A stretch of DNA of 64,000 nucleotides, taken from Bdellovibrionales bacterium. GTDB lineage: Bacteria > Bdellovibrionota > Bdellovibrionia > Bdellovibrionales > UBA1609. The DNA lies in the NCBI GenBank assembly GCA_019637855.1, contig JAHBUX010000007.1, positions 1 through 64,000 on the forward strand, in the 5' to 3' direction. Shown piece by piece: positions 22,801 to 57,875 of the stretch. Below the pieces are notes generated by a model. It was given only the letters and a program-made list of their open reading frames with translations. It was not told the origin of the DNA and made no database searches. The position numbers and the translations under genes are program-made. How positions within the stretch are numbered: position 1 is the stretch's first letter; the number at the start of each line of letters is the position of its first letter.

Positions 22801-23844
22801 ATTGACGTGAAAGGCACTTTTTCCGACGTGAAGATCAATGTACCAGAAGGTTTTCGCACCAATGGAAGCGGTACGATCGCTATCACCGGCAACAACTTCC
22901 CCTACACCATGTCGGTCGGATACAACGTCACCGGCGGTGAGGTAACCTATGAATTCGGTGAAGACGCCGGTGGTGCCACCACAGTCAAAGCGAGCTCCTA
23001 TCTACCGCGTTTCTTGTACCAGGATTCCTTTCACCCGTTCACGTTCGACATCGACATCGATTTGAAAAACCCGGTATTCGTGAACAACTCGCTCGCACAA
23101 GTGCAAGCCTTGGGACATATTCAGGCGACTGGCACCCCGGATCACCTTCTTCTGACGGGAACGCTGACGCCCAATCCGGGCGGAAAAGTTTTCTTTAACG
23201 AAACCCCGTTCGATATCTCATCAGCCTTTATCGAATACACTGGCAATCCACCGGCCAATCCCAGGATCTATCTGACCGCTTCCACCCGAGTGACCGAAAT
23301 TTCGCAAGACGATAACCAGCGCGCCACAGAGATTCAGTACGATGTGAATATGCTGGCGCAAGGACGCGGGCCGATCCCGCAGATTCTTTTGTCGTCACAA
23401 CCACCGCTCTCTCAGCGCGAAATCGTGTCCTTGCTCGCCCTCGGCGTCACCAGTGGCGCGATGGACAAAAGCACAACGACCAGTGCACAAGCCGCAAGCA
23501 ACACCTCAACAGCACTTGGTGCCGCCATCCTGCAAAAGGCGGGCAGCAAACGCTTAAAAGAGAGTCTGGGCCTGGATGTGAAAGTGTCCTCTTCCTCACC
23601 GGCGCCCGACAACGCCTCGACGCCTAAAGTGACGCTGTCCAAGCAGTTCACTCCGAAGCTAGGCGCATCGGCCAGTAGCACACTGCAGGCCAACCCGTCC
23701 AACTCAGTCCGTTTGGAATACAAAATGAACAAGAGCATGTCAGTGATCGGTTCCTGGGAAGGCCGCGAATATGTGCGCGAGCAAACCCAACCCGTCACCA
23801 ATGTGTTAGGCTTGGATTTGGAGTACAAGTTAAACTTTAAATGA
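19852..23844 (+). CDS. tamB: Translocation and assembly module protein TamB (AsmA/DUF490 type)
   Basis: A protein of 1330 residues with one N-terminal membrane anchor (LVRMGLIAGFFFLLGFSYNY) and a very long periplasmic region of repetitive beta strands, the form of the bridge-like TamB/AsmA lipid-transfer proteins. The C-terminal DUF490 region carries the family signature around LSQREIVSLLALG. I start it at ATG 19852, where ATGA overlaps the previous stop. It overlaps tamA by 4 bases. TamB and TamA together link inner and outer membranes in OMP insertion or phospholipid transport. Confidence 0.93.
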   Translation: MILRRPLVRMGLIAGFFFLLGFSYNYHLPRIESFLLIEVERLSEKHSPVRIWAQRLHFHLLPLGIVLEDVRLLPQKPLDNYLAPARLKEAGARLAVLPLLRGEIRLSSVFIRDSELSVFLRPELFERKSTPNSKGVKLDFEEIYRLPVDEIALERVNLQGRLDPQNVVFRVTDFNLVIENRYKSLFVEMQAPSVQIKPSGPIRPLNAQLELRTLVEAHEMQVSALKAKADDSFIVASGRFNGDIAAGQIDNGAFDARMKVQLSDVNIWEKVFVMKPQLPQLQGRAEMDFAMEVRQGKGYMIESDVKSEGIAIDKFKIGSVQGRIASNLKSITSERLQIANNAGKVQLSKVKVNLEGTPSFSAAVVPDLEVRQLLENINVKKVPILVPLKGDTECQGTLGEKPEMTCKGKLLASRIWVHSGAPKNSTIVDLEDARIEGDVKVTAKDVQYKAEAQLGKNSKGRSSGIIDYDKGFKILYTGDNLNFGDVKNLSDLKLEGEAKIDGITEGDSDAATLTLNAEAKDLWLEDYPLGRVNSKVTYKDGHLGFSGVQGQYGTSQFTGQVNLDLDKHQIAINGNIPFADLHDLKQIFQRKIDLPFDVSGTGQGTVEAHGPLRFQDMSYKVRSSFFRGEIAGETFDELVFNVNSKDGLVTTERFTLSKSSGGAEAKGQITPKGEIDLVVVARGMRLEQSENVLKYGLDLQGMADFTMLVRGQLPKPRIELNGRLSRVVLADQPAEDSVFKLNFLSDRVEGSGQFLGSTLLVDATYPYSNEAPFLLKLKARKWDFTSLFSLVSKSARQLDFSTSVSANINLASPQGGFWAASGQAEIDEFVIRKASKSMQANKPMYLTMRNGEVNSNNFTISSGDSFLKLDVSGLTYDRLNASLNGKLDLSLLGLFTPFISDLRGNMAISMDLAGSVPHPNLSGSAYIDRGYAKFVDFIHPFSNVRADILFNDNQVLLNSVRGDTASGKLSGDGKITFSGKTRPIDVKGTFSDVKINVPEGFRTNGSGTIAITGNNFPYTMSVGYNVTGGEVTYEFGEDAGGATTVKASSYLPRFLYQDSFHPFTFDIDIDLKNPVFVNNSLAQVQALGHIQATGTPDHLLLTGTLTPNPGGKVFFNETPFDISSAFIEYTGNPPANPRIYLTASTRVTEISQDDNQRATEIQYDVNMLAQGRGPIPQILLSSQPPLSQREIVSLLALGVTSGAMDKSTTTSAQAASNTSTALGAAILQKAGSKRLKESLGLDVKVSSSSPAPDNASTPKVTLSKQFTPKLGASASSTLQANPSNSVRLEYKMNKSMSVIGSWEGREYVREQTQPVTNVLGLDLEYKLNFK

Positions 23845-26708
23845 TGAAGTCTGTAGGCGTTCTTTTGGCATTGCTGTTTTCTGTTTCCGCCTTTGCGGCG
23901 CCGCCGCTTTTGCGTGAGCTCAATCCGAAGGACGATGAGTTACTGAAGAAGAGTCTGCCCTCCCTATTTAACGGCGGAACTCCCGAGCTGTCTGTGCTCG
24001 ACGAAGCCATCCGCCTACTGATGGCTAAGGGAACCTACGAAAACGTTTTTGTGGAAAAGCGCAAAGACGGCGTTTATGAAATCATTGGTAAGCCTGTTCG
24101 TACGGTGGAAGCAATTGAGTTCACCGGCACCCGCAGAATCGAAGAAAGCGAACTACGCGACTTGCTCGAGATCAAAATCGGCGAACGTTTCGATCGTAAG
24201 CGTGCGGTGGCCTCGGCCGAAAAGATGAAGACCTATTACGGTGAGAATGGTTTTTTCAATACCATCATTGAAGTCACCTTCGACAAACTCCCCAGCAAGA
24301 ACATGAAGATCACCTATGCCATCCAGGAGAAAGAGCCCTGCATTATCTCAGGCCTGGATTTCACCACCGAGAACAAAGACCTGCACGTCCGTCTGGAAGC
24401 GCGCTTCCGCGATGTACGCAAGCGACGCCTGACCACGGACCGCGCGCGTCGCCTTTCGAATGACCTGAACGAGTTCCTCATCAACTCACGCTATCTGACC
24501 GCCGAGATCAGCGGACCTGAGGCCACATACAATAAAGAGAAGACGAAAGCCTACTTGAAGTTCGAAGTGCGCGAGCCTTACCGTTGGGAATTCTTCCTCA
24601 GCGGCTTTCGTTGGCCCGAAACCGAAACCTCGATGCTGCAGGCTCTGGACTTGCGCAACCGCGAACGCAAGAACGTGGACCCTCCTGGCGAAGGCGCAGA
24701 TCGCCTGCGTCGCTACTATTTGGAAAAAGGGTTTCCTAACGTTCAGATAGAAACCAAAGTGGTCAATCCCCCAGGCACTTTTTTGCGCCGAGTGTACTTT
24801 ACGATCAATGAAGGCGCCCGCGTTCGCATCAAAGCCATCGAGGTACAAGGGCGGATCTCCCGCAGCTCGAAATACTATGAGAAGTTTATTTTGGAGAATA
24901 GCTCCCCACTGATCGCGCGCGGTTACTACAATCGTTCTGACCTGGAGATCGGCTTTAAGAACTTGGTGACCAGCCTGCGCAACGAAGGCTACCTACGTGC
25001 CCGCGTGCTATCCTCACGCGTTGAGTTCAACGACAAACGCGATATGGCCACCATCGTTCTGCTTTTAGAAGAAGGACCGCAGACCCAGATCCGCGCCTTG
25101 GATTTTGAAGGCAATAAGTTTGTGTCCAGCTTTGAGCTGGCGCAGGTCACTGGCCTTGAGACCAACTCACCCTTACGTTTGAATCAGTTTGAAGCCAGTT
25201 TAGAAAAGCTGAGAGAGTTTTATCACAATCAAGGTTTTCTCGAGATGAAGCTGCTGAATGAGAAAGATGACATCATTCAGTACAACGACAAGGGCACGCA
25301 AGCGCGCATTCTGTTCCGTATTTACGAAGGTCCGCGTATTCGCGTGCACTCAATTGCGGTTGAAGGCAACACAATCACCAAAACGCGAGTGATTCTAAAA
25401 GAAGCCGACTTCCGCGTAGGCGAGGTTTTGACGCTGAAGAAGATTGATGACGCCACGATTCGGCTGAACAAACTCGGCTTATTCTCACGCGTCGACATTC
25501 ACACTTTGGAAGAAGGCACCAATGTGGCCGAGCGCACGCTGGTGATCAACGTCACCGATCGTGATCCTGGCACGTTCCGTATCGGTCCCGGTATCACCAA
25601 TGAGCGCAATCTCACCGTGCGCGGGGTGGCGGGGTTAAGCTATCAAAACTTAGGCGGTACGGGTCGTGGAATCAGCCTGCGCGGTGAGATCAAGCAGAAC
25701 GTTGCGCAGATCAACTATCCCGAGCATGAGTTCACGATCGGCTACTTCGAACCGTTCTTACTCAATACCCGCACGCGTGGGCGCATGAGTCTTACCCGTT
25801 CGGAGCATGTCTTCGACTATCAGCATGAACATCGCTTAACCAAGCTGACCACCACCAATCGTTTGGATTTGATGGCCGAGCGTGACCTTTCCTCCCGTAC
25901 CCGTTTGGCGTGGAAGGTGTGGAGTTTGGAATCAAACACCGATTGGGAACGCCAGGGCCGCTGCGTAGTGGATCCTTCCGATCCGAATTCAGGCGCACCT
26001 TACAATCCGGCTTGGGGTAAGTGCGCTTCCGACACCATGCAAGTGGCCACCATCGGCCCGATCTTGGATATCGACTATCGCGACAACCCCTTCTTGCCGA
26101 CCCGCGGTTCCAACACCCGCCTGTCGATTGACTATTCGCACCCGTCACTCGGAAGCTCGGCGGGTGTTAAGTTTATTCGCACGGAAGGCAGCTATTCGCA
26201 TTATTTCCGTCTGCCGTGGAAGCGTTGGATTTGGGCCAACTCGGTGCGCTCGGGCTATGTGAAAAATTTGAGCGATGATCCCAGCAGCGGTGTGCCGTCC
26301 AACTACGCCTTCTTACTGGGTGGGATCAACACTCTGCGCGGCTTCGACTTAGCCAGCGACAATGAACGTGTGCCAAAGCAAGGTGATGGCGTCAGCGATT
26401 CTCATCCCAATGGTTTCCAACTGGAAAAAGGCAACCAACGGCTGATCCAAAACGATTCCTATTACTATTTGTTGAAGACTGAGTTGCGTTTTCCGATCTA
26501 CGGCGAACATGGCGGTGTGGTGTTCTACGATGGCGGCGCCGTGGGCGTGAGCGGCTACAAGTTCAAACGCCCGTATCGGGATGCGGTCGGTGTTGGCTAT
26601 CGTTACGAGACACCTGTTGGTCCGGTGGCGCTGGACTTCGCGTTTAAGGTGCGGCCTGAGGTTAACGAGGAGCTTTTTCGTTTTCATCTGTCCATCGGTA
26701 CCTTCTAG
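23841..26708 (+). CDS. tamA: Omp85-family protein TamA with seven POTRA-like repeats
   Basis: A 955-residue outer-membrane protein. A signal peptide (LLALLFSVSAFAA) is followed by a periplasmic region of about 560 residues and a C-terminal beta barrel ending in a typical OMP signature (FRFHLSIGTF). By eye I count about seven POTRA-like units, each ending in a motif such as YAIQEKEP, FEVREPY, FTINEGA, LLLEEGP or FRIYEGP. That exceeds the three POTRAs of enterobacterial TamA and the five of BamA. The partner tamB directly precedes it, which favours the TamA name over BamA. Confidence 0.88.
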   Translation: MMKSVGVLLALLFSVSAFAAPPLLRELNPKDDELLKKSLPSLFNGGTPELSVLDEAIRLLMAKGTYENVFVEKRKDGVYEIIGKPVRTVEAIEFTGTRRIEESELRDLLEIKIGERFDRKRAVASAEKMKTYYGENGFFNTIIEVTFDKLPSKNMKITYAIQEKEPCIISGLDFTTENKDLHVRLEARFRDVRKRRLTTDRARRLSNDLNEFLINSRYLTAEISGPEATYNKEKTKAYLKFEVREPYRWEFFLSGFRWPETETSMLQALDLRNRERKNVDPPGEGADRLRRYYLEKGFPNVQIETKVVNPPGTFLRRVYFTINEGARVRIKAIEVQGRISRSSKYYEKFILENSSPLIARGYYNRSDLEIGFKNLVTSLRNEGYLRARVLSSRVEFNDKRDMATIVLLLEEGPQTQIRALDFEGNKFVSSFELAQVTGLETNSPLRLNQFEASLEKLREFYHNQGFLEMKLLNEKDDIIQYNDKGTQARILFRIYEGPRIRVHSIAVEGNTITKTRVILKEADFRVGEVLTLKKIDDATIRLNKLGLFSRVDIHTLEEGTNVAERTLVINVTDRDPGTFRIGPGITNERNLTVRGVAGLSYQNLGGTGRGISLRGEIKQNVAQINYPEHEFTIGYFEPFLLNTRTRGRMSLTRSEHVFDYQHEHRLTKLTTTNRLDLMAERDLSSRTRLAWKVWSLESNTDWERQGRCVVDPSDPNSGAPYNPAWGKCASDTMQVATIGPILDIDYRDNPFLPTRGSNTRLSIDYSHPSLGSSAGVKFIRTEGSYSHYFRLPWKRWIWANSVRSGYVKNLSDDPSSGVPSNYAFLLGGINTLRGFDLASDNERVPKQGDGVSDSHPNGFQLEKGNQRLIQNDSYYYLLKTELRFPIYGEHGGVVFYDGGAVGVSGYKFKRPYRDAVGVGYRYETPVGPVALDFAFKVRPEVNEELFRFHLSIGTF

Positions 26709-37977: not shown

Positions 37978-39651
37978 TTAGGCGGCTTTCGCCGCCGCAT
38001 CGAGCTCGCCACTAGTGGAATAAGGCAGAACGATATGAAACGTCGTGCTCTGTTCGGGCACAGAACTCACCGTAATGCTCCCGCCTCGCAGCTCGACCGA
38101 AACACGCAAAGCTTCAAGGCCAATACCACGGCCAGATAGCTCCGTGACCTCAGTGGCAGTAGAAAATCCCGGCGCGAAAATAAGATTCATAATCTCTTGT
38201 TCAGGCAAATCCGTCGTGTCGATACCTTGGCTCTCTGCCTTGGCCGCGACTGCTTGAACATCAATCCCATTACCATCATCGCTAATCCACATGTGCAAGT
38301 AGCGACGACCTTGGCTTTCGCGCAGATCACTCTTTACGGAAATACGGCCAAGCATGGATTTACCGCGCTTACGGCGGATTTTCGGTGCTTCGATGCCATG
38401 ATCGACCATATTGACAAAGACGTGGCTAAGACTCGCGAATACACCGGCGTAAAGCTCGTGCACAACCGGTACGTTCCTGCCCTCAAAGACCAGTGCAGCG
38501 ATGGGCTTTTTCATGTCTTCGGCAATGCTTTGAACGGTAAGGTTGAAGCCTTCAAGGATGCGCCATAAGGGTGTAGCGACGAACTGCTCTTCGAACTCTT
38601 TGCGCAGTGTCGGATTCGGTTCCAGCCGATGAGCAAACGCCATCAAATCCTGCAGATCAATTTCCCGGGTGGGGCGCGTGTCACCAATGACTTCGCGTAA
38701 AATCTCGCGGTGTTCGGAGAGAATGGACTCAAAGCGTTCTCTCAGCTGCGTCACACCTTGCAGCAGGTAGTTTTGCGCTTCAGCCAGACCGGTCAGATTC
38801 TCGATATGACTTTCCACTTCGTGAATATCATCCTTCAACTGGCGAAAGCCGAAGCTCGAAGTGGCTCCCTTGATCGTATGAATTCCTCGACGGATGGCAT
38901 TGATGTCCTCGATACCGAAGTGCGGACTGTTCGCATGCTTCAGCGCTTCATCCAAAAGACTGCGAGCCGCGGCGATAAAGCGCTTCAATTCGGTTTTGTT
39001 TTTCAACACCTGCATCACCAAGGTCACATAACCTTGCAGCCGCGAGGTCTCCTGTTTTGCGCGCGCCTCGTCGGTGTAGTCGGTGGCGATAACCAACACT
39101 TGGGTCAAACGGCCACTAGTGTCACGCACGGCGCGATAGCTGAGTTCGATGGCGCGACCTGAAGAGTGTGGAAATACGGCGGGCGCGATGTCGATTAAGC
39201 TTTCAAAACCAACGCGCTCTCCAAACAGCAGCGTGCACCACTCTTTGAACGTATCCAGCTCGGCGTCGGGCACGCGCAAAACCTCGGCCACAGCGCGGCC
39301 GGAAGGCATCGCCTCCAATAAGTCGGCGCACACCTGCGAACACACAGAATGACAAATGCCATCCGGACCGAACAAAAAGAAGCCCTGGCCTAAGCTGTTC
39401 ATCATGGCATCTAAAGTGTGATTGAGGTCGATCAGGCCGCCGTTCCCTTCGGCCTTGTCATCAAGTCGCATATAGGACTCATCGACGGTCTGTAAAAAGT
39501 CAGGAAAGCGAATCAGAAAGAGTTCGAGCTCAGCTTTTATCTCAGCCGTGGCTTCCCCAGACAGAACCGAGCGAAAGGCCGAGAGACGATTTTCAATGGA
39601 TTTGTCGCCAAACACACGTTTGAGTTGGCGACTCAGTTTCTTGCTGCTCAT
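37978..39651 (-). CDS. CheA-like histidine kinase without CheW domain
   Basis: A 557-residue cytoplasmic kinase. A PAS-like domain occupies about 80-190. An Hpt domain at about 230-325 has the phosphorylation motif RRGIHTIKGATSSF (His near 257). A CheA-type ATPase domain covers about 360-545, with NMVDHGIEAP, DDGNGID and GRGIGLEALR. It lacks the C-terminal CheW-like P5 domain and any obvious P2 domain, so it is not a standard chemotaxis kinase. It has no membrane segments. The phosphate acceptor is unknown, and no receiver gene is adjacent. It is convergent with fadD, their ends 11 bases apart. Confidence 0.85.
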   Translation of the reverse strand: MSSKKLSRQLKRVFGDKSIENRLSAFRSVLSGEATAEIKAELELFLIRFPDFLQTVDESYMRLDDKAEGNGGLIDLNHTLDAMMNSLGQGFFLFGPDGICHSVCSQVCADLLEAMPSGRAVAEVLRVPDAELDTFKEWCTLLFGERVGFESLIDIAPAVFPHSSGRAIELSYRAVRDTSGRLTQVLVIATDYTDEARAKQETSRLQGYVTLVMQVLKNKTELKRFIAAARSLLDEALKHANSPHFGIEDINAIRRGIHTIKGATSSFGFRQLKDDIHEVESHIENLTGLAEAQNYLLQGVTQLRERFESILSEHREILREVIGDTRPTREIDLQDLMAFAHRLEPNPTLRKEFEEQFVATPLWRILEGFNLTVQSIAEDMKKPIAALVFEGRNVPVVHELYAGVFASLSHVFVNMVDHGIEAPKIRRKRGKSMLGRISVKSDLRESQGRRYLHMWISDDGNGIDVQAVAAKAESQGIDTTDLPEQEIMNLIFAPGFSTATEVTELSGRGIGLEALRVSVELRGGSITVSSVPEQSTTFHIVLPYSTSGELDAAAKAA

Positions 39652-39764
39652 GCTTAAGATTTATCGGAGTCCGCTGCTTAGACATTAAAGATTTAGACGC
39701 CAAAGCTAGGCTGGACTTTAGGTGAGGCGCTTTGTAAATTCCCCTACACCTGGGGAGGGAAGTC

Positions 39765-46166: not shown

Positions 46167-46296
46167 AAAGGGGAATATGGCCTCACGGAAGGCCACCCGC
46201 AAGTGCGTAAATAGGCCTCATGCAGCGCCCAAATCCAATATAAGCATGGCATAGATCTTGTTCTCTCGATGGTATCAACAAACGAGGTTTGGAACT

Positions 46297-47343
46297 ATGA
46301 AAGCCACTATTGTCTTGCTGGCGTTGATGGCCCTGAAAGCGGAAGCTTTTCCGATCAATACCGGTCAAATGGGAGCCGTTAAGAGTCTTTCTGGACAAAA
46401 CTTCTCCACAGTGGAATCCGAACCTCAACCCGAAGGTCCTAAAGAGGACTCAACCGGCGATCGTAAATACCCCTCGATTTTGCCCAACGTGGACCCCTAC
46501 CCGGGCAATACGGACGGCACGCTCAATCGCAACCCGAAGCAACCGCACCCGCTCAATCCAAGTGCGCCAGTGTATCCCCCGCTACCCCCGATTCCCGGCG
46601 TGCCGCGTTCACAACCGGCCCCAACACGCATGGATCCACGAGTCGAAATCCCCCTCGATGAATTCATCGGCGTCGGTCAACTCAGTGAGGAGATGGATGC
46701 AGATGGACTAGGCAACGATGCCGTCTATTTGTATCGCGTTTCTAATCCAGAAGTGTTCGTCGTGATCGATAAAGACACGCAAACAATCACCGTCCGCTCT
46801 CCGGAAACCGAAGCCACGCAACAGAGCGGCGAAGTCACGCGCTATGTATCGACCGGCGGTGGCTGGAAAAATCCGGTGGACCCGACCTCAGGCCAACCCG
46901 ACGAACCCTACTGTGCCGACAACGTCACTCCCAACGTCACCAATCTTTTTATCCCCGCCACCGAGGGACAGACTTTGTTCAAGAATAAACGCTCGAACCG
47001 CTTCACTTCAGCCAACGGCGTTGGCGTGGCCATGCCCTATGCGATTCACGTGATCGGTCACGGCGGTATTTTTCTGCATCAGGTCCCCAGTGGAAAAATG
47101 GCCGACGGTCGCCGCTATAGCGATCTTCTCGGCGACAATGTGAGCGGAGGCTGCATTCGCCTCGACGCCGAAATGGCTCCATGGCTCTATGACCTAGCCA
47201 AAAAACACGGCGGCATTCAACTTACGATCCAAGGTACAAGCCCGGCCAAGTGTCGCCAAGCACAGAGACGACAACCGCAGCAACAATATCCGCGCCAACA
47301 AAGACCGAAGACGTTAGGCGATTTCTTCCGCGATTTTTTCTAA
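46297..47343 (+). CDS. Exported L,D-transpeptidase (YkuD family)
   Basis: A 348-residue exported enzyme. The signal peptide is MKATIVLLALMALKAEA. A proline-rich spacer spans about 40-110, and the YkuD catalytic domain is at about 150-320. The active site shows HVIGHGGIFLH and then NVSGGCIRL, containing the nucleophilic Cys. L,D-transpeptidases cross-link peptidoglycan or attach proteins to it. In predators such enzymes also rework prey wall, but nothing here decides that. A GAGG ribosome site precedes the ATG. The 3' side carries a large palindromic element. Confidence 0.9.
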   Translation: MKATIVLLALMALKAEAFPINTGQMGAVKSLSGQNFSTVESEPQPEGPKEDSTGDRKYPSILPNVDPYPGNTDGTLNRNPKQPHPLNPSAPVYPPLPPIPGVPRSQPAPTRMDPRVEIPLDEFIGVGQLSEEMDADGLGNDAVYLYRVSNPEVFVVIDKDTQTITVRSPETEATQQSGEVTRYVSTGGGWKNPVDPTSGQPDEPYCADNVTPNVTNLFIPATEGQTLFKNKRSNRFTSANGVGVAMPYAIHVIGHGGIFLHQVPSGKMADGRRYSDLLGDNVSGGCIRLDAEMAPWLYDLAKKHGGIQLTIQGTSPAKCRQAQRRQPQQQYPRQQRPKTLGDFFRDFF

Positions 47344-47652: not shown

Positions 47653-50637
47653 ATGATGACCAGGCTTTATAAAATTCTGCCGATCCTATTAGTGACAAGT
47701 TCACTCGCGCACGCCGTGAAGATGGACGAAACCACTCACGATATGATCATCCAGCGTTTAGAGCTGGGCATCGATACCATGGGCAAGAACGAACCCGAAC
47801 GTAACGGTATCCTTCTGCGACTAGCTGATCTCTATGCAGATCGCGCCCGCTTAAAAGCTATCAATGAAATGGATAGCAACTGCACCAGCTGTAAAGGTGC
47901 CCGCAACGATCGCAAACGCGCGATCGCGCTCTTGAACGAGGCTTTGCCCAAGGCTCCTGCTGATCGTCAAGGTCCGGCCGTACTGCAAATCGCTCACTTG
48001 AATGGCTTGAACGACGAATCGACCAAAGCCACTCAACTCTATAAAGGCGTCTTGAAGAACAAGAGCAAGTATAGCTCGGAAGTTTTAGCTATTGCGAACG
48101 CCAATGTGGCCGAGATCTATTTTAAGAAGGGCGATTTCAAAACCGCTCTCTCTTATTATGAAGCCGCTCGCCGTGAGAACTTGAAAACCCGTGCCTTGGT
48201 GGAATACCGCATCGCTTGGTGCCATTTGAACATGGGTAAAAATGAGCAAGCCATCAAGACCATGACCGGTCTGCTGCGCAATCCGGAAATGCTGGCCACA
48301 CAAACGACCGATGGCAAAACCGTGGACCCGACCTTCGTGGCCGATGCTTCGCGCGATCTCGCCCGCTTCCTAGCGCGCACGACCATCACTCCCAGCCAAA
48401 TCGAATTGTTACGCGGTTTAAGTCCAGATGGCGCACGCAAAACCAATTTGCACACACTCGGCACAGAGGCCGATCGCTTGGGCAAAAAACAAGAGTCTCT
48501 GATTGTGTGGGCCGCCTATGTGGACGAAGGCGATGTCCAAGCCAACGAGAAACTTGAGATTCAAATCCGTGTGGCTCGCATTTTTTATGATCTGAACAAA
48601 CAAGATCTCGCCATCAACGCCTTTGAAAAAGCTTTGGACCTGTGGTCAAAGAACGGTTGCAAAAACAATGAGGAACTGTGCAAAGAACTGAAGTCGCGCG
48701 TACGCGCCATGGTTCTGGCCTGGAACAAGGCTCAAAAAGAAGAGCCCACCACTCATCTGTTCCGTGCCTATGTCGCCTACACCAATGTCTTCCAAGACGA
48801 CGTCGAGATGCTGCATTGGGGAGCCGTAGTCGGTCACGATTTGAAGAAACACAAAGAGTCCATCACTCTGTTCCGTCGCGCCTCGACTCTCGCCGCCGCG
48901 CAATTGGCCAAGAATGCAAACGACAAGAACCTGAAGAAGATCTTTGAAGGTTCGTTGCTCGGTGAGATCGAAATGGCCGAAGCGAGCAAAGATGCAAAAG
49001 CTCAAGAGGCCGCCTACAACTTCTATCTACAGATGAACCCGAATGGCGAACAAGCTTTCCAAGTGCGCTACCAGCGCGCGCAAACGTACTATAGCAGCAA
49101 TCGCTTTCAAGAAGCGTTCTCCGAATTCCATTACCTGGCTTCACAACCGGGAAAGAACGATCGCGATCTAAAAGTGAAATCGGCCGACTTGGCTTTGGAC
49201 AGCTTGGCCGCCTTGAAAGACGACAAAAACATCCAAGTGCGCAGCCTTGAGTACGCCCGTCTGTTCCCCGAACGCAAAACTGAGTACTTGAAGATCTCGC
49301 GCAAAGCCTCGATGAATCTCGTGGCCGCCAACCTAAAGAATGGCAAAGAGACCGATCGTTCGGACTATCGCTCAAGCTTAGCCGCTTTGGACAAAGTGAA
49401 CATGGAAGGCGCCGACGACGCCGAGAAGATCAAGTTCTACAAAAACAAACTGACCGTGGCGCAAAAAGCTCTCGCTTTAGATAGCGTCAACGACACCTGC
49501 AATCGCCTATTGCTGGTTAAATCCCTCTCCAAAGAGGACCACGAATGGGTCCTCGAACAGAAGGTCTGGGTTGCCGAATTGCAACTGAATTTCTCTTTGG
49601 CCTACGAGATCACGCAAGCGATGAAGCTTCCCAACCTGAGCAAAGCCGAGCGCGAGCTGCGTTTGGCTCTCCTGGCCGAACTCTCTGGCCAAAGCTCACG
49701 CCAGCACAACGAAGCTTTCTTACGCCACAACAAAAACGCGCGGGCCGGCAACTTGGTTCGCATCACTCTGATCAAAGACTCATCGAATCCGTGGCGCGAA
49801 CTCGACAAGCATCTCTCTTCGCTCAAGCAAACTCCAGATCTCCTGGCCGGAATCACGCTTGAGACCTTCGCTCGCGACAAAAACTTCACCAAAGCCGAAC
49901 GCCTTTTGCGCACCACACGCATTGGCCAATACCCGGCAGGCCTGACTCTGGCCCGACATTTGGAAATGCGCGATTTCCACGCTTTCGATCGCAAGATCCG
50001 CTCGCACCGCGTGCAGGGCTTTAGCGATGTGGTCATGCAAAAGACTTTGAAAGAGCGCCTTAAGCTCTTAAATCAGAGCGAGAAACAAGCTCAAGCCGCT
50101 ATCGGCAAACGCGATTGGACGCTGCAGGTATTGACCCTCAGCCAGCTAGCTCGCGAGAACCGCCGCCTGTACAAAGACATTCTCTCCCTTCCCGTACCGC
50201 GCCGCCTGAGCGCTGAGGACAAACAGAAGTACCTGCAGATCCTCAAGGCCCAGAGCGAACCCTACTTAGCCCGCGCCGAGAAGATCGAGAGCGAACTGAA
50301 CGCCATGTGGGGCAATTCCAACTCAGTTCAAAACCTACAGGCAACCTATATGACTTCGACGCCTGAGTTGCAGAAGTTCTATCGCGACGAGATTAAAGAG
50401 CTTGCCGCGATTGCGCCTAGCAGAGCCGGAAATCGTCTCAACAACTTGCTCAACACGCCCTTCCGCCGTCCCTCGCAAAAAGACATTCTGACAGCCCGCC
50501 GTGACCTGCAAAAGGACCCCTTTGATATCTCAAAAGCTCAAAGTTTGCGCGAACTTGAAGCGCAAAATGGCAAGGCCGCGATGGTCGTTTATCTCGATGC
50601 CCGCATCTCCCAACTCAAAAAAGGTAAGGATTTATGA
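47653..50637 (+). CDS. Large exported TPR protein, first gene of motility-type operon
   Basis: A 994-residue protein made almost entirely of helical TPR-like repeats (for example SYYEAARRENLKTRALVEYRIAWCHLNMG and EAAYNFYLQMNPNGEQAFQVRYQRAQTYY). The signal peptide is MTRLYKILPILLVTSSLAHA. The frame is open back to 47413, but that part lies in the palindromic element, so the start is at 47653 or 47656. Large periplasmic TPR proteins also head the gliding operons of Myxococcus. It overlaps the next gene by 4 bases. Confidence 0.85.
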   Translation: MMTRLYKILPILLVTSSLAHAVKMDETTHDMIIQRLELGIDTMGKNEPERNGILLRLADLYADRARLKAINEMDSNCTSCKGARNDRKRAIALLNEALPKAPADRQGPAVLQIAHLNGLNDESTKATQLYKGVLKNKSKYSSEVLAIANANVAEIYFKKGDFKTALSYYEAARRENLKTRALVEYRIAWCHLNMGKNEQAIKTMTGLLRNPEMLATQTTDGKTVDPTFVADASRDLARFLARTTITPSQIELLRGLSPDGARKTNLHTLGTEADRLGKKQESLIVWAAYVDEGDVQANEKLEIQIRVARIFYDLNKQDLAINAFEKALDLWSKNGCKNNEELCKELKSRVRAMVLAWNKAQKEEPTTHLFRAYVAYTNVFQDDVEMLHWGAVVGHDLKKHKESITLFRRASTLAAAQLAKNANDKNLKKIFEGSLLGEIEMAEASKDAKAQEAAYNFYLQMNPNGEQAFQVRYQRAQTYYSSNRFQEAFSEFHYLASQPGKNDRDLKVKSADLALDSLAALKDDKNIQVRSLEYARLFPERKTEYLKISRKASMNLVAANLKNGKETDRSDYRSSLAALDKVNMEGADDAEKIKFYKNKLTVAQKALALDSVNDTCNRLLLVKSLSKEDHEWVLEQKVWVAELQLNFSLAYEITQAMKLPNLSKAERELRLALLAELSGQSSRQHNEAFLRHNKNARAGNLVRITLIKDSSNPWRELDKHLSSLKQTPDLLAGITLETFARDKNFTKAERLLRTTRIGQYPAGLTLARHLEMRDFHAFDRKIRSHRVQGFSDVVMQKTLKERLKLLNQSEKQAQAAIGKRDWTLQVLTLSQLARENRRLYKDILSLPVPRRLSAEDKQKYLQILKAQSEPYLARAEKIESELNAMWGNSNSVQNLQATYMTSTPELQKFYRDEIKELAAIAPSRAGNRLNNLLNTPFRRPSQKDILTARRDLQKDPFDISKAQSLRELEAQNGKAAMVVYLDARISQLKKGKDL

Positions 50638-50930
50638 GGATCTTAATCCTGCTCGCCGCCCTTGGTCTGGCGGTTGCAAGTTCTAACCCGGTTGCAGCTG
50701 CGCCCAAAAAGGCTATTGCGAAGAAATCGCAAAAAGCCAAAGGCAAGGCCGCGAAGCCGCGTGGAGATTTGAAGACGGACGTGCGTTTTGACGACTCCGT
50801 CCTTTATGGGGAATACCAGTCGCCGCAAGAAGCGGTGGCGCGCGTGGAAAACGAGAAGGGTTTGAGTGATCTCTTAGGAGTTCGCAAACACTTCAAAGAC
50901 CGCCTCTCTGAGGCGGCGGAACAAGAGTGA
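50634..50930 (+). CDS. Small basic exported protein
   Basis: A 98-residue protein with a signal peptide (ILILLAALGLAVASSNPVAAA) and a lysine-rich first part of the mature chain (KKAIAKKSQKAKGKAAKP). It has no recognised domain. It overlaps the upstream TPR gene by 4 bases (ATGA) and the downstream gene closely, so it is a true member of the operon. Confidence 0.75.
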   Translation: MRILILLAALGLAVASSNPVAAAPKKAIAKKSQKAKGKAAKPRGDLKTDVRFDDSVLYGEYQSPQEAVARVENEKGLSDLLGVRKHFKDRLSEAAEQE

Positions 50931-50938
50931 GGTCGGGT

Positions 50939-52174
50939 ATGATCGCCGGGCGTTTCGTACTAGAAAATCAAAAGGGAGAAGTGGTTCGCACGTTCTCCAT
51001 CGAATCCGAAGAACTCTTTCTGATCTATCGCCATGATATGCGTCGTGTGGAACTGGTCTCCAGCCTCAAAGCTTTGGACAAAGAAGAGGTTCAATACGAC
51101 CTTCTAAAGAAGACGACGGCAAACGCCGTTAAACGCCGCTCGGTGGATTTGGGCAACGGTGGAAAATTCCGTTTCGCCAAAGAGATCGAGAAACTGGCCA
51201 GCCTGGTTCAAGTCAAAGACGACTCTGAAGAACAAGAGCAAGCCATCTACAAGCGCACGGTCTACACCCAGGCCGGCGCCATGCTGTTCATCTTGATCGT
51301 GGGTCTGTTGATCGAGCCCTTGTTCATGAAGAAACAAGAAGAGCCGGTCGTCGTTGTCATCCCGCAAGAATTCATTCAGAAAAAAGAAGCCGTAACGGTT
51401 CAAGCCACTCAGAAAAAGATCGATCCTGTTAAGAAAGTGGCCAACAAGCGCGTAGAAAGCAAAGTGAAGCCGGTCACCAAGACTCTCACTCAGCGTGTGA
51501 AGACCGCGCGCAAAGAGAACGCTCCTTTGCGCACCAAAGTGAAGGTTGAAAACGTCGGCGCCTTAGGCGTGCTCGGCGGTATGAAGAACGGTTCGAAAAA
51601 TTCGGCCGGCTTCAATATGAAAGCTCTTAACGACTCACGTGGCACTTCATGGAATGGCGCCGGTAGCGGCGGTGTCGGTGGTATGGAGCGCGCGGTTCCG
51701 GGCGCAGGTCTCGTGGCTTCGGCCATGGGTAACGGCGGTCCGGTTGAAGGTGGTGGCGGTTACGGTACGCGCGGCAAAGCCGGCGGCGGTCGCCCCGGTT
51801 ACGGCACCATGGGCATGGGCGGAACTGCAGCGGCCTATTTCGAACCCGTACAAGAAGAGGCTCTGGTCGAAGGTGGCTTGAGCATGGATCAAATCGCGGC
51901 TGTGATCAACCGTCATAGAGGCGAGTGGATCAATTGCTACGAAAAAGGCCTGCAAGTGAAGTCGGGCTTGAGCGGTCGCGTGAACGTGAAGTTCACCATC
52001 AACGGCAGCGGTATCGTGACCGCTTCGGGGATCGGCGAAAGCTCTTTGAACAGCGCACAAGTTGAAGGCTGTATCGCCAGCCGCATCCGTACCTGGAAGT
52101 TTCCCAAACCCGTCGGTGGCGTGAACGTGAAAGTTCAATACCCCTTCGTGGCGAAACGGATGAACCATGGATAA
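50939..52174 (+). CDS. AgmX/PglI-type TonB-like inner-membrane protein
   Basis: A 411-residue protein. A soluble cytoplasmic part of about 110 residues is followed by one membrane helix (AGAMLFILIVGLLIEPLF), a long Lys/Pro/Gly-rich periplasmic spacer, and a C-terminal TonB-like domain (INCYEKGLQVKSGLSGRVNVKF ... VEGCIASRIRTWKFPKP), which matches the AgmX/PglI C-terminal domain of gliding-motility proteins. Such proteins transmit inner-membrane energy to the outer membrane. The start is ATG 50939 (GAGG upstream); a GTG at 50927 overlapping the previous stop is also possible. Confidence 0.88.
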   Translation: MIAGRFVLENQKGEVVRTFSIESEELFLIYRHDMRRVELVSSLKALDKEEVQYDLLKKTTANAVKRRSVDLGNGGKFRFAKEIEKLASLVQVKDDSEEQEQAIYKRTVYTQAGAMLFILIVGLLIEPLFMKKQEEPVVVVIPQEFIQKKEAVTVQATQKKIDPVKKVANKRVESKVKPVTKTLTQRVKTARKENAPLRTKVKVENVGALGVLGGMKNGSKNSAGFNMKALNDSRGTSWNGAGSGGVGGMERAVPGAGLVASAMGNGGPVEGGGGYGTRGKAGGGRPGYGTMGMGGTAAAYFEPVQEEALVEGGLSMDQIAAVINRHRGEWINCYEKGLQVKSGLSGRVNVKFTINGSGIVTASGIGESSLNSAQVEGCIASRIRTWKFPKPVGGVNVKVQYPFVAKRMNHG

Positions 52175-52184
52175 GGAGCAACGT

Positions 52185-53171
52185 ATGTTCACGAAGAACA
52201 TTCTAGCTTTGGTGCTCTTGGGTGTGGCGGTGTTGCTTACCGCTTGTCAGGGCGAAAACACGTTCCGCCGCCCGTCCAACCCGTATTCCGAATACCAACA
52301 CGTGTACGACGATTCGTTGGCCTATGACGTCAACAACCGCCCGAAACCGCAAGTGGCCAATCCCACGCCGTACATTCAGACTCCCGCTTGCACAGAGCCG
52401 TTCAAAATGACGATCGAAGGCAGCAAAGACGGCGGAAAGTCGGTTGAGTTCGTACAGAACAAACAAAAGTCGATCACCATCACCGTCGAGTCGCGTATCG
52501 AAGCGGATCGTCAATGGGATGTTCGTCCCATGGTAAGCCCTTGTGAAAACTGCTTCAAAACCGTTTCGAAAACACAAGACAAAGCTGAGTACAAATTCAC
52601 TTGGAAGCCCGGCAAGATCGGTAAGTTTCAAGATCAGTTCTTAGTCTTGCGCTACGACTACCTGATGGACACGCGTTGCACGAATGCTTCGCCGAACCAA
52701 CAGATCGCTCTGATCATCACCGACGGCAAAGTGCAAGAGCCCTCCGTGGCTTTCTCTGAAATCAAAAGCGAAGGCCTCAAGTTCGGCGATTCCTTTAAGT
52801 TCCAGATCAAGATCAGCGACACTGAGGGCAGCGTTGAAAAAGCTCCCGACGTCGCCGCGATCACTTACATGATCGACGGCAAAAAAATCAGCAGTAAAGC
52901 GCAAGCGCCGGTGGACTGCGAAAAAAACGGTGAGTTGCTCGAGACTCCCGGTGAAGCTCCGACTTGGGTGTTCCAGTGCGCCTTCGAATCGCGCTTGATC
53001 GGCCTGACCGCGGCACAAATCAAAAAGTTAAGCGGTAGCGGTAAAACCGTTGTCGCCTCATTTAAAGTCAAAGCTCAATCGAATGCCAGCTCGTTGGTTG
53101 GCAGCGCCTCAGCCGAAGTCCCGGTTCTTTTCGAAAAGACCGGTGCAGTGGCGAAAGCTCAAGGAGAATAG
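52185..53171 (+). CDS. Operon lipoprotein with beta-rich domains
   Basis: A 328-residue lipoprotein. The signal peptide MFTKNILALVLLGVAVLLTAC has Cys21 in the lipobox, and AAGGAG sets the start at 52185. The mature part is beta-rich with several cysteines (PMVSPCENCFKTV) and resembles one or two immunoglobulin-like folds. It sits between the TonB-like protein and the OMP gene. I know no name for it. Confidence 0.8.
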   Translation: MFTKNILALVLLGVAVLLTACQGENTFRRPSNPYSEYQHVYDDSLAYDVNNRPKPQVANPTPYIQTPACTEPFKMTIEGSKDGGKSVEFVQNKQKSITITVESRIEADRQWDVRPMVSPCENCFKTVSKTQDKAEYKFTWKPGKIGKFQDQFLVLRYDYLMDTRCTNASPNQQIALIITDGKVQEPSVAFSEIKSEGLKFGDSFKFQIKISDTEGSVEKAPDVAAITYMIDGKKISSKAQAPVDCEKNGELLETPGEAPTWVFQCAFESRLIGLTAAQIKKLSGSGKTVVASFKVKAQSNASSLVGSASAEVPVLFEKTGAVAKAQGE

Positions 53172-53172
53172 T

Positions 53173-53883
53173 ATGAAACGCTTAAGCCTTATCCTCTTAA
53201 GCCTGTTTGCGATCAACGCTTTCGCCGCCAAGGGCGATCTCACGTCGGAGATGGACGCCCTCGGCGCCAACAAAGACCTGATGAAAAAAGCCCGCGCCAT
53301 CGATCCTGAGAACCGCATTCGTGTGGTGCAGAATCGCGACGTGGACCGCCGCTTGCGCTTGGAGATCGGTGTCAACGCCGCTCTCGTCGAAGGTGGTGAC
53401 CCGTACGTGAACACCAACACGCTTGGCGCCAACTTGGACTTCCACATCACTCCCCGCTGGTCGGTGGGTGCTCGCTACTCGAACTACACGAACACATCGA
53501 CGGCCGAAGGCAAACGCGTTTACGAAGACGCCGCCAAAGACAAAACCCTGCGCTTTCCTGGTTTTGACTACGCCAAGAACTCCTGGATGGGCGTTGTGAA
53601 CTGGTATCCCATCTATGGCAAGCTGAACATGTTCGACCTCGGCATCTCGCAATTTGACATCTATTTCCTCGGCGGCGCGGGCCAAGTTTTCTTGGGTTCG
53701 GGCACAGAGCCGATCTACACCGCCGGTGGCGGCGCGGGCATCTGGCTGGCGCAGCACTTGTCGATGCGTTTAGAAGCGCGCTGGCAGGGTTTCACCGACC
53801 ACCCGCAAAACGGCAATGGCGGAGTAGAGAATCGTTCGATCAATGAAACTGTTTTGGGTCTTTCGTTTGGATTCCTCCTCTAG
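53173..53883 (+). CDS. Outer-membrane beta-barrel protein of the myxobacterial motility type
   Basis: A 236-residue protein with a signal peptide (LILLSLFAINAFA). The mature chain begins with a short helix and then alternating hydrophobic strands (LRLEIGVNAALVEGGDPYV ... LDFHITPRWSVGARYSNYT), ending in LGLSFGFLL. This is the pattern of the short barrel family found beside gliding genes in Myxococcus and relatives. AAGGAG precedes the start. Confidence 0.85.
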   Translation: MKRLSLILLSLFAINAFAAKGDLTSEMDALGANKDLMKKARAIDPENRIRVVQNRDVDRRLRLEIGVNAALVEGGDPYVNTNTLGANLDFHITPRWSVGARYSNYTNTSTAEGKRVYEDAAKDKTLRFPGFDYAKNSWMGVVNWYPIYGKLNMFDLGISQFDIYFLGGAGQVFLGSGTEPIYTAGGGAGIWLAQHLSMRLEARWQGFTDHPQNGNGGVENRSINETVLGLSFGFLL

Positions 53884-53895
53884 GAGGGAGAGATT

Positions 53896-55374
53896 ATGTT
53901 ACGGGCAGGAAGCTTAGTACTTATATCTATGTTGAGCTGGCAAACGTGGGCAGGGAATTTCGATTTCCTCCCCGGCACTGAGGGACCGGAAAAGGAATTT
54001 CAGTCCCTTATGAATGCTGGCAACTACCGTCAAGCCTTGGTGGCTTGGACACCGGCCCATTCGGGCTCGGCTTTCGGCACATCGCAGAGCGGTGTGGCCA
54101 CCTATGCTTACTTGCTCTATCAAAATGGTTTGCCCTACAACGCTCTCGATCTTTTGACCAAAGCCACCAAACCCGCGGCGCTAAAGCCGCAGCTTCTCAA
54201 GATCTGGAGTGCGGAGCTTAAAAGCTCCGTGTGGATCCAGCGCGGTTGGATCTCATCCGGCAACTGGCGCTCCATCGTCAACAACGATGCGGTTGTTTTG
54301 AAAATCGCAAACAAGAAAGACGTGCAAGCGGCATTTGCTCGCGCCTCGCGCTTGAGCGCCGATCAAACCAACGCCAAAGCTCGCGTGTGGTGGCAAATCG
54401 CGACTCTGGCTCCGCAGATCGGTGACGTGGACTCCTCTTTGAAAGCCTTGAAGCTTTTAAAAGAGTCGGGTCAAACGGCGATCGGTCAAGATATGATCTT
54501 GTCGGCCTATGGTCGTGTGACTTACCAAAAAGGTGACACCACGGCTGCGGCTGAATACTTCAACCAGATTCCGAAAAACTCAAACCTTTGGGTGGAGTCG
54601 GTGGAAGAACGCGCATGGGCTCACCTGCGCGCCGATGATTTCGACAAAGCTTTAGGCGAAGTGACCACCCTGATGTCACCCGCTCTGGTTGCTTTGGTCG
54701 GTCCAGAGTCCTATTTCCTGTCGAACTTGATGAGCCTGAAGACTTGCGACTATCCCCGTCTCTTCAAGACCAGCGAAACCTTTAAGAAACGTCATCGCGA
54801 TCGTCTGATCGATATGCAAGAGCTTGCCACCAATGGCAGCAACAAGAACTTAAGCGCTCTGCTTGAGCGTTTCGACAAAAATGGCGTCAGCATTGAGTCC
54901 TCCGGCCCGATCGTGTCTTCACTCCCACGCGCCGGATTGCGCGACAGCAAATTTGTACGCTTGATGGAATCTCGCCGCCAACTTCTGGCGGAGGTTGAAA
55001 AGTTGAACGAACTGAAGTCGGCGACCGCGGCCCTGGGCGGCGCAGGCGAGCTCGAGCGTTTCTCCATGGCCTCACGCCGTCTTGCCGATCGCAACCGTCA
55101 GCAGGCCGTCTCGCGTCTGCGCGTGTTGGCGCAAGGTGAAGTGAAAGAATACCGCATGGTCTTAAACAAGATGCACATCCTCGAAGGCGAAGTCATCGAG
55201 CGCTTGCACTTAGATGAAAACTTGAAAGGCGAACGCAGCAAACTGGCCAAGGTCGAAGACCAAGGCGATGTGTTGGTGTTCCCCTATAAGTCCGATGAAG
55301 TCTGGTTCGACGAACTGGACAACTACAAAGCCCGGGTGAAGGATTGCCCGACGCTTAAGGGAGCTAGCTTATGA
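53896..55374 (+). CDS. Second exported TPR-like protein of the operon
   Basis: A 492-residue protein with a signal peptide (LVLISMLSWQTWA). The body is helical repeats of TPR type (ILSAYGRVTYQKGDTTAAAEYFNQIPKN), and the C-terminal third forms a coiled-coil-like stretch (SRRQLLAEVEKLNELKS). It overlaps the next gene by 4 bases. The role is inferred from the operon only. Confidence 0.8.
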   Translation: MLRAGSLVLISMLSWQTWAGNFDFLPGTEGPEKEFQSLMNAGNYRQALVAWTPAHSGSAFGTSQSGVATYAYLLYQNGLPYNALDLLTKATKPAALKPQLLKIWSAELKSSVWIQRGWISSGNWRSIVNNDAVVLKIANKKDVQAAFARASRLSADQTNAKARVWWQIATLAPQIGDVDSSLKALKLLKESGQTAIGQDMILSAYGRVTYQKGDTTAAAEYFNQIPKNSNLWVESVEERAWAHLRADDFDKALGEVTTLMSPALVALVGPESYFLSNLMSLKTCDYPRLFKTSETFKKRHRDRLIDMQELATNGSNKNLSALLERFDKNGVSIESSGPIVSSLPRAGLRDSKFVRLMESRRQLLAEVEKLNELKSATAALGGAGELERFSMASRRLADRNRQQAVSRLRVLAQGEVKEYRMVLNKMHILEGEVIERLHLDENLKGERSKLAKVEDQGDVLVFPYKSDEVWFDELDNYKARVKDCPTLKGASL

Positions 55375-56918
55375 AAAACCTAATGATCCGACTTCCGCTG
55401 AGCGCAGCCCTGGTGCTGGTTTTGGCGAACTGCAAGTCCGAATCTCCGGCTTTGACTGGCCCCGGCCCCAAGCCAACACCGGCGTCTTACGCTACTCCCC
55501 GCCCAGATGCGAAGAACTTCAGCAAGGCCTTCGCGTTTGAAACGGCGGAAGCAACCGCCACTCAAGAGCGTTACGACGAGAACCAAGTTTCGGTTCTGTT
55601 CCAAGTGACCAAGGATGGGCAGTCGGTCAACGGACTGACTGAGCGCAATCTGCGCGTGACTGAAAACGGAATTCCCGTGACGCCGTTTAAAATCTTCGCC
55701 GACACTCAGAAGCTGGATCAAGTCGCCGACATCGCCTTCGTAGTGGATGTGACAGGATCGATGGGTCCATTTATCGAGAGCGCGAAGCAAGTTCTGACTC
55801 AGTTCATCCGCACCACCAAGAACAAAGGCTACCATGTGCGCATGTGCCTTTCGACTTTCGGCGATCTGGTCACTCAGAAATGCGATCGCTTTTATGACAA
55901 CACCAGCGAGAGTCAAGTGAGCGAGTTCGTCACTCGTTTGACCGGCCTACAGGTGTCTAAGGGCAATGCCGAAGTAAAGCCCTACATCGACAAAGAAGAA
56001 AACTCCATGCGCGCTCTGTACGAAGCCACAGGTTCTCCCTGGGAGGCCGGATCGCAACGCTTTGTGATCTTGGTGACTGACGCCGATTTTTATTCGCCCG
56101 ACAAACCGGGCCGTTTCTTAGAAGGTCACCAATCCAATCCGGAGACCGTGGCTCCCTCGATGAAGCAAGTGAACGAAGTGATCGCCGGCTCTCAGGTACG
56201 CGTGTTTGCAGTAACTCCGTCGGCGGCAGGTTACAATTCTCCTCTGGCTGGACAAAAAGGCGTTGTGCAGTCGAGCCGCGGTGAGCATTTTGACTTCTTC
56301 AAGGTGAACAAACGTCAGATTTCGCTAAACTCGATCTTGGACCGCATTCTTCACAGCATCAACACCACGTACAAACTGATGTACACCGTCGACAAAGTCA
56401 CCGGTCTGGATCCGACATTGGCTGTTGGCGCACGCAAAATCAGCGTGACCACGGATGCGGGAACAGTGACCGGCAAGGGAATTACTAGCAGCATGCCGAA
56501 TGGCCGCCCGAACTACAAAAAGGAGTTCACGATCTCGAGCTCGCCGGTGCAACCTGATTCAGTGCAGGTATTTATTGATGGCGCCGCGGTCAATCCGAGC
56601 GATTTCTCGGCCACGGGTGGTGTTGTGATCTTCAAGAACGTGCCGAAAGCAGGTTCCAGCTTACGCTTTGTGTATCTGTACGAAGCTATCGACAAGAACT
56701 TGCGCGTGGAGCCGATCATGATTCCCGGGCACACCGATGCTCGCACCACGAAAGTTTGGCTGAACGGTCGCGAGGCCAAGGCTGAAGATTTGACTTTCGG
56801 TCGCGATATGTCGGGCAACACGACCCTTTCGATCGCGCCCTCGGCAATGGCTTCCAATGATCCCTACGATATCCGCCGTAATAATGGGGTGAAGATGCAG
56901 GTTGTAACCAACCTATAA
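55371..56918 (+). CDS. VWA-domain lipoprotein
   Basis: A 515-residue lipoprotein. The signal peptide MKNLMIRLPLSAALVLVLANC gives Cys21 as the lipidated residue. A von Willebrand factor A domain at about 115-320 holds the metal site DVTGSMG; the C-terminal part is beta-rich. VWA domains bind proteins or surface ligands through the metal. It is the last gene of the operon and is followed by a hairpin. Confidence 0.88.
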   Translation: MKNLMIRLPLSAALVLVLANCKSESPALTGPGPKPTPASYATPRPDAKNFSKAFAFETAEATATQERYDENQVSVLFQVTKDGQSVNGLTERNLRVTENGIPVTPFKIFADTQKLDQVADIAFVVDVTGSMGPFIESAKQVLTQFIRTTKNKGYHVRMCLSTFGDLVTQKCDRFYDNTSESQVSEFVTRLTGLQVSKGNAEVKPYIDKEENSMRALYEATGSPWEAGSQRFVILVTDADFYSPDKPGRFLEGHQSNPETVAPSMKQVNEVIAGSQVRVFAVTPSAAGYNSPLAGQKGVVQSSRGEHFDFFKVNKRQISLNSILDRILHSINTTYKLMYTVDKVTGLDPTLAVGARKISVTTDAGTVTGKGITSSMPNGRPNYKKEFTISSSPVQPDSVQVFIDGAAVNPSDFSATGGVVIFKNVPKAGSSLRFVYLYEAIDKNLRVEPIMIPGHTDARTTKVWLNGREAKAEDLTFGRDMSGNTTLSIAPSAMASNDPYDIRRNNGVKMQVVTNL

Positions 56919-57107: not shown

Positions 57108-57800
57108 CTAGGCGGCAAACTTCTTGATTTGATCAAGCTTGTCACGCAAACCGCGAACTTCTTCTTTCAAAGCCTTATTCTCTTTAAGCATCAGCGCCAA
57201 CGTGCGCTGAAGCTGCGCCACTTCCAGAGTGGGCGCCTTGCCCGGATCGGCAGTGGCAGCGGCGACCGCGGCCACCGCATCGTTAACGGCAGCGGAAGAA
57301 TGCCCGCTGCTGCTACCTGAGCCTTGCTCTTCCAAACGTGCTTCTAAGTCTTCCGGGATCAAGAGCTTCTGGTCAAATTTCTCAACGTGCAGCTGTCTCT
57401 CGTGGATCATACGACGGGCCGTTTCGACCACTTTCACCAAAGTGGAAGAGATCTCTTCGGGCTTCGGCTTGCTCTCAGTCAACACATCAGTCAAACGGCG
57501 TTGTTCCGCATGCGACAAAAACTTCGTGATGCGCGCCTTTTGCTCTTCTTTCAAACCTTCAAGAGCGAAAGCCAAACTCTTCGGCTGCATCTCTTTAAAA
57601 ATTTCGATGATAACTTCATCAGGCCACGTGAAAATACGCTCGAGGGTGAGCATCTTGTCGCGCAAAGCTTGGGCCCATGCCGCGCTTTCGGCCTCGATCA
57701 TTTCCATGAATTTTTCTTTTTTCTGCGGACCGAAAGTTTCGATCAAAGACAGAAGTTGATAAAAGCCGCCGGATTTTTTGTATCTTGATAGTGAGCTCAT
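57108..57800 (-). CDS. FliG-C-like protein with coiled-coil tail
   Basis: A 230-residue cytoplasmic protein. Residues about 10-125 align by eye with the middle-to-C-terminal domain of FliG: ALRDKMLTLERIFTWPDEVIIEIFKEM matches the IRxxMFVFEDIxxLDDRSIQxILREV region, and LAFALEGLKEEQKARITKFLSHAEQRRL matches LAxALKGAxEExxxKIxxNMSxRAA. Residues about 125-195 are linker, rich in Ser and Ala, and 197-228 form a coiled coil (LQRTLALMLKENKALKEEV). No flagellar gene is nearby. Full FliG is about 330 residues, so this is a truncated or separate relative. It is convergent with the motility-type operon. Confidence 0.78.
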   Translation of the reverse strand: MSSLSRYKKSGGFYQLLSLIETFGPQKKEKFMEMIEAESAAWAQALRDKMLTLERIFTWPDEVIIEIFKEMQPKSLAFALEGLKEEQKARITKFLSHAEQRRLTDVLTESKPKPEEISSTLVKVVETARRMIHERQLHVEKFDQKLLIPEDLEARLEEQGSGSSSGHSSAAVNDAVAAVAAATADPGKAPTLEVAQLQRTLALMLKENKALKEEVRGLRDKLDQIKKFAA

Positions 57801-57875
57801 ACCCCACTTTCGGAGTAAATTCGCCGAGTCTTGAGCCGCCGGATCTTAGGTCTAGTCCGGCAGCTGATAGACGTT

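Follow-up and report, generated by a model that had tools for sequence, protein, structure and literature searches.

A free-standing FliG-C paralogue with a sigma-28-type promoter candidate beside a Glt-like operon in a Bdellovibrionales bacterium

Does a FliG-type protein encoded next to a gliding-type operon serve that operon, the flagellum or something else? The question is raised by a gene on contig C24 of a 3.37-Mb, 26-contig Bdellovibrionales genome, analysed here within a stretch of 64,000 nucleotides (the window). The first-pass annotation had described a FliG middle/C-terminal-like protein away from any flagellar genes, and had proposed its recruitment to a gliding or envelope machine. 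The following features were assigned to the gene, with positions referring to the window.

57108..57800, minus strand: gene of the FliG-C-like protein, 230 aa (open frame, Pfam, phmmer, AlphaFold model, orthologue profile)
57369..57776, minus strand: FliG ARM_C plus C-terminal (torque) module, residues 9-144, equivalent to FliG 192-328 (8umx_B, Z 13.6)
57474..57512, minus strand: counterpart of the FliG torque helix, residues 97-109 (model and charge comparison)
57231..57314, minus strand: Ser/Ala/Gly-rich disordered linker, residues 163-190 (pLDDT <50 at 163-188)
57114..57227, minus strand: C-terminal coiled-coil helix, residues 192-229, ending in a conserved (Q)IKKIA-type tail (model and alignment)

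Residues 34-136 matched Pfam FliG_C (PF01706) with an E-value of 5.3e-13 and 49.6 bits, the curated gathering cut-off being 23.3. Using phmmer, the only solved structures matched were FliG chains, and a profile of 24 orthologues matched A. aeolicus FliG at 1.8e-16. The AlphaFold model had a mean pLDDT of 86, with block means of 93-97 across residues 11-150, and was superposed on FliG residues about 192-328 of 8umx (Z 13.6). It likewise matched 1qc7 (Z 13.6, rmsd 1.6 Å over 88 residues), and its C-terminal part matched the MotAB-bound FliG 8ucs_H (Z 11.0, rmsd 2.1 Å over 87). Both the Pfam search and the structural comparison suggested in the first-pass annotation therefore recovered FliG. The Ser/Ala-rich linker and coiled coil read there by eye are borne out by the model, which is disordered at 163-188 and forms a long helix at 192-229. 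As to the domains, the C-terminal part stands (49.6 bits, Z 11-13.6) and the middle domain does not, the protein beginning at the GG linker.

Against the NCBIfam fliG equivalog TIGR00207 the protein scored 34.4 bits (cut-off 226.7), covering model positions 191-295 only. The FliF-binding FliG_N and the FliM-binding middle domain (ARM_M) are absent, as is an EHPQR-type motif, and the protein starts at approximately FliG residue 192. In the orthologue alignment, M-S-M-L-x-RYKK-x-GGF forms the N-terminus of the family from residue 1; since the GG linker marks the border between middle domain and ARM_C in FliG, both ring-anchoring parts are gone. No signal peptide was seen in the protein, which is thus most likely cytoplasmic. 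Kinship with MotE or the magnesium transporter MgtE was considered and rejected, as MgtE_N reached 23.4, below its cut-off of 25.9, and FliG scored far better. A chance or frame artefact was rejected because orthologues occur across families with 12 invariant columns. The protein belongs to the FliG_C family, yet is not a FliG: a paralogue that stands alone, it comprises the ARM_C and torque domains and has an additional coiled coil. It shares with FliG the ARM_C and C-terminal torque-domain fold over ~192-328 and the conserved GG linker. It differs in lacking FliG_N and ARM_M, in having lost most torque charges, in its extra linker and coiled coil, and in being encoded outside a flagellar operon.

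Torque charges were compared at E. coli FliG positions K264, R281, D288, D289 and R297, which we take to be the charged positions that matter for MotA contact. All five are retained in the flagellar FliG of the host. In the FliG-like family, K264 is replaced by H, E or others, R281 by S, I or A, D289 by L, V, I or M and R297 by P or A; the one position largely retained is D288 (D or E in 32/43). R281, D288 and D289 map within the torque-helix counterpart and K264 and R297 flank it. The MFxF hinge is lost as well. With most MotA-meshing charges gone, the protein most likely carries no torque.

Orthologues were matched in 31/40 relatives, and the gene is widespread among 141 genomes of the order; scanning genome contigs yielded a single orthologue. 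Nine of the 12 invariant columns lie within the first 42 residues. This segment corresponds to the part of FliG that packs against the neighbour's middle domain, and here it may face a partner of its own. Outside the family of the window, in other families and classes and phylum-wide, a form of ~150 aa without the coiled coil is found. At E-values of about 1e-7 to 1e-10 the wider-phylum search mixed true FliG with the FliG-like family, so that only stronger matches were taken as members. The short phylum-wide forms adjoin unrelated (housekeeping) genes. Several further loci were recorded. Two short FliG-C-like genes (171 and 164 aa) stand in tandem in one of the phylum's more distant families (L086:7132-8154, plus strand). 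Short genes at L056, L058, L064, L083 and L088, from several families, have similar neighbour sets, the one at L083 being flanked by tRNA-synthetase genes and, on its opposite side, by a T2SSE ATPase/secretin-domain pair. One genome of the Bdellovibrio-type family encodes three more FliG_C proteins, all within 60 kb (G076:C1:465554-523742) and in frames of 295-415 aa scoring 103-120 bits, perhaps belonging to a second flagellar-type system.

The housekeeping surroundings of the short forms, the lost torque charges and hinge and the weak MgtE_N match, which indicates reuse of the fold elsewhere, would all suit an ARM-like helical scaffold of FliG descent that has since drifted into some unrelated function in the cytoplasm, its ancestry then being silent on function. 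We consider such drift rather unlikely, since the gene is restricted to genomes with flagellar genes. Its own genome has a normal full flagellar FliG on another contig (C14), where fliF precedes it and fliH/fliI-like genes follow. The first-pass annotation was thus right that the gene lies away from flagellar genes, as far as location goes, and no flagellar cluster surrounded the FliG-like gene in the loci examined. Across 103 high-quality genomes of the order, 81 had both FliG and the FliG-like gene, 11 FliG only, 2 the FliG-like gene only and 9 neither. Carriers without flagella were sought and rejected: four candidates (2 high-quality, 2 less complete) seemingly without FliG/FliF all have flagellar rod/hook genes, and are therefore read as flagellated genomes with assembly gaps. 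The corrected table for the 103 genomes (83/11/0/9) gave a Fisher value of 7e-8, relatedness being ignored; the flagella-less genomes are small and clustered in one family, so that a single shared history explains part of their absences, which cannot be counted as independent events. Where this could be checked, the gene was present in 0 genomes shown to lack flagella. Given the 11 high-quality flagellated genomes without it, the gene is an accessory, dispensable for having a flagellum.

Upstream of the gene a promoter candidate was located, ending 7 nt before the ATG.

57808..57834, minus strand: sigma-28/FliA-type (attack-phase) promoter candidate TCAAG-N16-CCGAAA

In B. bacteriovorus, the attack-phase consensus TTAAG-N16-CCGATA accounts for 92/140 attack-phase promoters (PMC3627812). 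The site in the window departs from it by 2 mismatches, at the exact spacing. Orthologue upstreams were scanned with this consensus, allowing a spacing of 15-17 and <=2 mismatches, with other genes of the same loci as background. Sites were found in 37/52 orthologues versus 38/609 other genes (Fisher 1e-27, relatedness ignored), the background starts having been set by mechanical start codons, which may lose some true sites. Three hundred scrambled consensuses gave a mean of 1.9 and a maximum of 21, none reaching 37. By median member, 23/35 genera passed the scan. With the E. coli-type sigma-28 consensus the outcome was the same (19/53 orthologues versus 30/624, 1e-10), and CCGAW lay within 90 nt upstream of 45/53 orthologues and of 106/625 others. 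At many loci only 6-9 nt separate the end of the -10 box from the ATG, and the site-to-ATG position of the window recurs across several genera; a box so near the ATG implies either a leaderless transcript or a start codon further in. Promoter candidates in most genera also argue against the drifted scaffold. Neither in this genome nor in one Bdellovibrio-type genome did the stretches examined show clear class-3 promoters at basal-body genes, and the sigma-28 motif therefore rests on the published B. bacteriovorus consensus. The FliA motif is the mark of the entire B. bacteriovorus attack-phase programme (PMC3627812), to which surface, protease and many non-flagellar genes belong. The promoter candidate is accordingly no proof of a flagellar role; it places the gene in the swimming/attack programme.

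Two other genes of the window have comparable sites. At 37978-39651 (minus strand) a CheA-like kinase with Hpt and HATPase_c parts is preceded by TTAAT-N16-CCGATA, a sigma-28-type site close to the consensus; it ends at 39662, 10 nt from the ATG. A response regulator with DnaJ and TPR parts at 1927-3786 (plus strand) is preceded by TCAAC-N16-CCGATA, ending at 1916.

The adjoining operon, listed as context and not as part of the unit, was annotated as follows.

47656..50637, plus strand: TPR protein, first gene of the Glt-like operon
50634..50930, plus strand: CglF-like small protein (NF033764, 22.4 bits, below the cut-off of 90)
50927..52174, plus strand: short GltG-like protein with AgmX/PglI C-terminal domain
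52167..53171, plus strand: lipoprotein-like protein
53170..53883, plus strand: outer-membrane barrel, OMP_myx
53896..55374, plus strand: GltC-like TPR protein
55371..56918, plus strand: VWA/MIDAS lipoprotein, last gene, convergent with the FliG-like gene

A gliding-type operon had been reported alongside, and it is indeed of the Agl-Glt kind described for Myxococcus and Bdellovibrio (GltC, GltG, CglF; PMC3169522), including the short GltG-like AgmX/PglI protein. The best GltG and GltC of the genome are on C21, making the window operon (47656-56918) a paralogous Glt-like copy; Bdellovibrio is known to have more than one Glt set (PMC3169522). Just upstream of the operon, at 46258-47343 (plus strand), a protein was seen by eye to contain HGG...SGGCIRLD, a stretch characteristic of YkuD L,D-transpeptidases, and at 19828-26708 (plus strand) the window encodes a TamB-like and Omp85/BamA-like pair, a translocation/assembly module.

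AglR/Q/S-type motors are relatives of MotA and TolQ (PMC3169522), and if the adjacent Glt-like gliding/envelope machine had recruited a FliG-type module, that module could touch a stator of this type. The gene adjoins the operon in 7 genomes of 4 genera (G000-G003, which represent the genus of the window, G014, G013 and G124), and this adjacency is retained down to ~33% identity of the neighbour although the other flanking genes are reshuffled. All seven genomes belong to one family, however, and no such adjacency was seen at the loci inspected in the order's other families. Gene content provides no tie either, because the Glt core is near-universal in the order (GltG in 141/141, GltC in 139/141 genomes) and present in all nine high-quality genomes that have neither FliG nor the FliG-like gene. 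The two units are convergent and hence not one transcript, no sigma-28-type site was found upstream of the operon when the window was scanned, and the torque-helix charges are mostly lost. The FliG-like gene corresponds to no known Glt/Agl component, and neither its distribution nor its promoter follows the operon. Recruitment to the gliding or envelope machine is therefore abandoned as the main reading, in view of the limited adjacency, the Glt genes in genomes without the gene and its own promoter candidate, and is now judged quite unlikely. The gene is conserved largely without relation to the motility-type operon. A link is kept in consideration by the adjacency at ~33% identity and by VWA/MIDAS neighbours in two families. 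Taken together, the gene very probably both encodes a FliG-C paralogue under a sigma-28-type promoter and forms no fixed part of the Glt-like operon; it looks like an accessory of the swimming/attack phase rather than part of the adjoining gliding-type operon.

Beyond a VWA/MIDAS neighbour, no conserved operon partner of the long form was found. In the Bdellovibrio-type family, an NF052240 MIDAS adhesin lies <=1.2 kb from the FliG-like gene in 40/56 genomes, usually directly upstream on the same strand. Adhesins of genus g34 scored up to 738 bits against this Bdellovibrio MIDAS adhesin equivalog model (cut-off 700), and we equate them with the Bd0875 family; judging from genomes of the Bdellovibrio-type family, the FliG-like gene would adjoin bd0875 in HD100. 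Many members of a genus of large single-contig genomes within the order reach that cut-off, in keeping with Bdellovibrionales. The adhesin is distantly similar to the VWA/MIDAS lipoproteins that end the Glt-like operon in several relatives. B. bacteriovorus that has lost Bd0875 still kills prey and cannot invade (PMC11003981). The FliG-like protein might accordingly be an attack-phase contact adaptor, acting with the MIDAS/VWA adhesin system in prey or surface handling with no role in a rotary motor. The VWA lipoprotein as nearest operon gene in the family of the window fits such a role, as does a FliA motif that marks attack-phase genes. We nevertheless hold it to be unlikely: the adhesin (PMC11003981; NF052240) is a different protein, a surface lipoprotein connected by linkage only within an attack-phase setting, and contact with a protein predicted to be cytoplasmic would need a relay. 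MIDAS genes are moreover numerous (1-18 per genome), so that a single adjacency could be accidental. The linkage in the Bdellovibrio-type family may be one inherited arrangement, and gaps of 100-1130 nt together with a separate promoter speak against a single operon. Given its persistence over several genera and the VWA lipoprotein nearest to the gene in the family of the window, a functional link with the adhesin is plausible.

The explanation we favour, tentatively and at somewhat less than an even chance, is that the product works as an accessory under sigma-28 control, which would dock at the flagellar rotor or close to it and tune the motor or bring it to a stop. The highly conserved N-terminal half (RYKKxGGFxQLLxLIE...) is the counterpart of the FliG segment whose usual contact is the middle domain of the neighbouring FliG, and could dock on FliG in the rotor or on a partner related to it. 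The coiled coil would oligomerise the protein or recruit a second one. Bound in this manner, it might cap, tune or brake the flagellar C-ring in the swimming/attack phase or on contact. EpsE and YcgR are flagellar clutch or brake proteins that act on the rotor; by its proposed action alone, as a cytoplasmic accessory at the rotor, the FliG-like protein may resemble them. A bolder version, which we regard as improbable, is that a lineage-wide, rotor-free torque-domain protein couples surface or prey contact, by way of the MIDAS/VWA adhesin systems that are its recurrent neighbours, to the flagellar motor or a gliding stator, forming an exchangeable clutch with which predatory bacteria would pass between swimming and attachment.

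The free-standing FliG-type module is real and conserved and looks like a previously undescribed accessory; the literature searched for FliG-like genes in Bdellovibrio yielded no description of it. FliG is normally a subunit locked in the rotor ring, and the family conserved here retains only its stator-facing half, free of the ring, which makes it a handle on the regulation of rotor/stator contacts. Should its site of action be the motor, the protein might help to account for the way predators of the Bdellovibrio type cease swimming on prey attachment.
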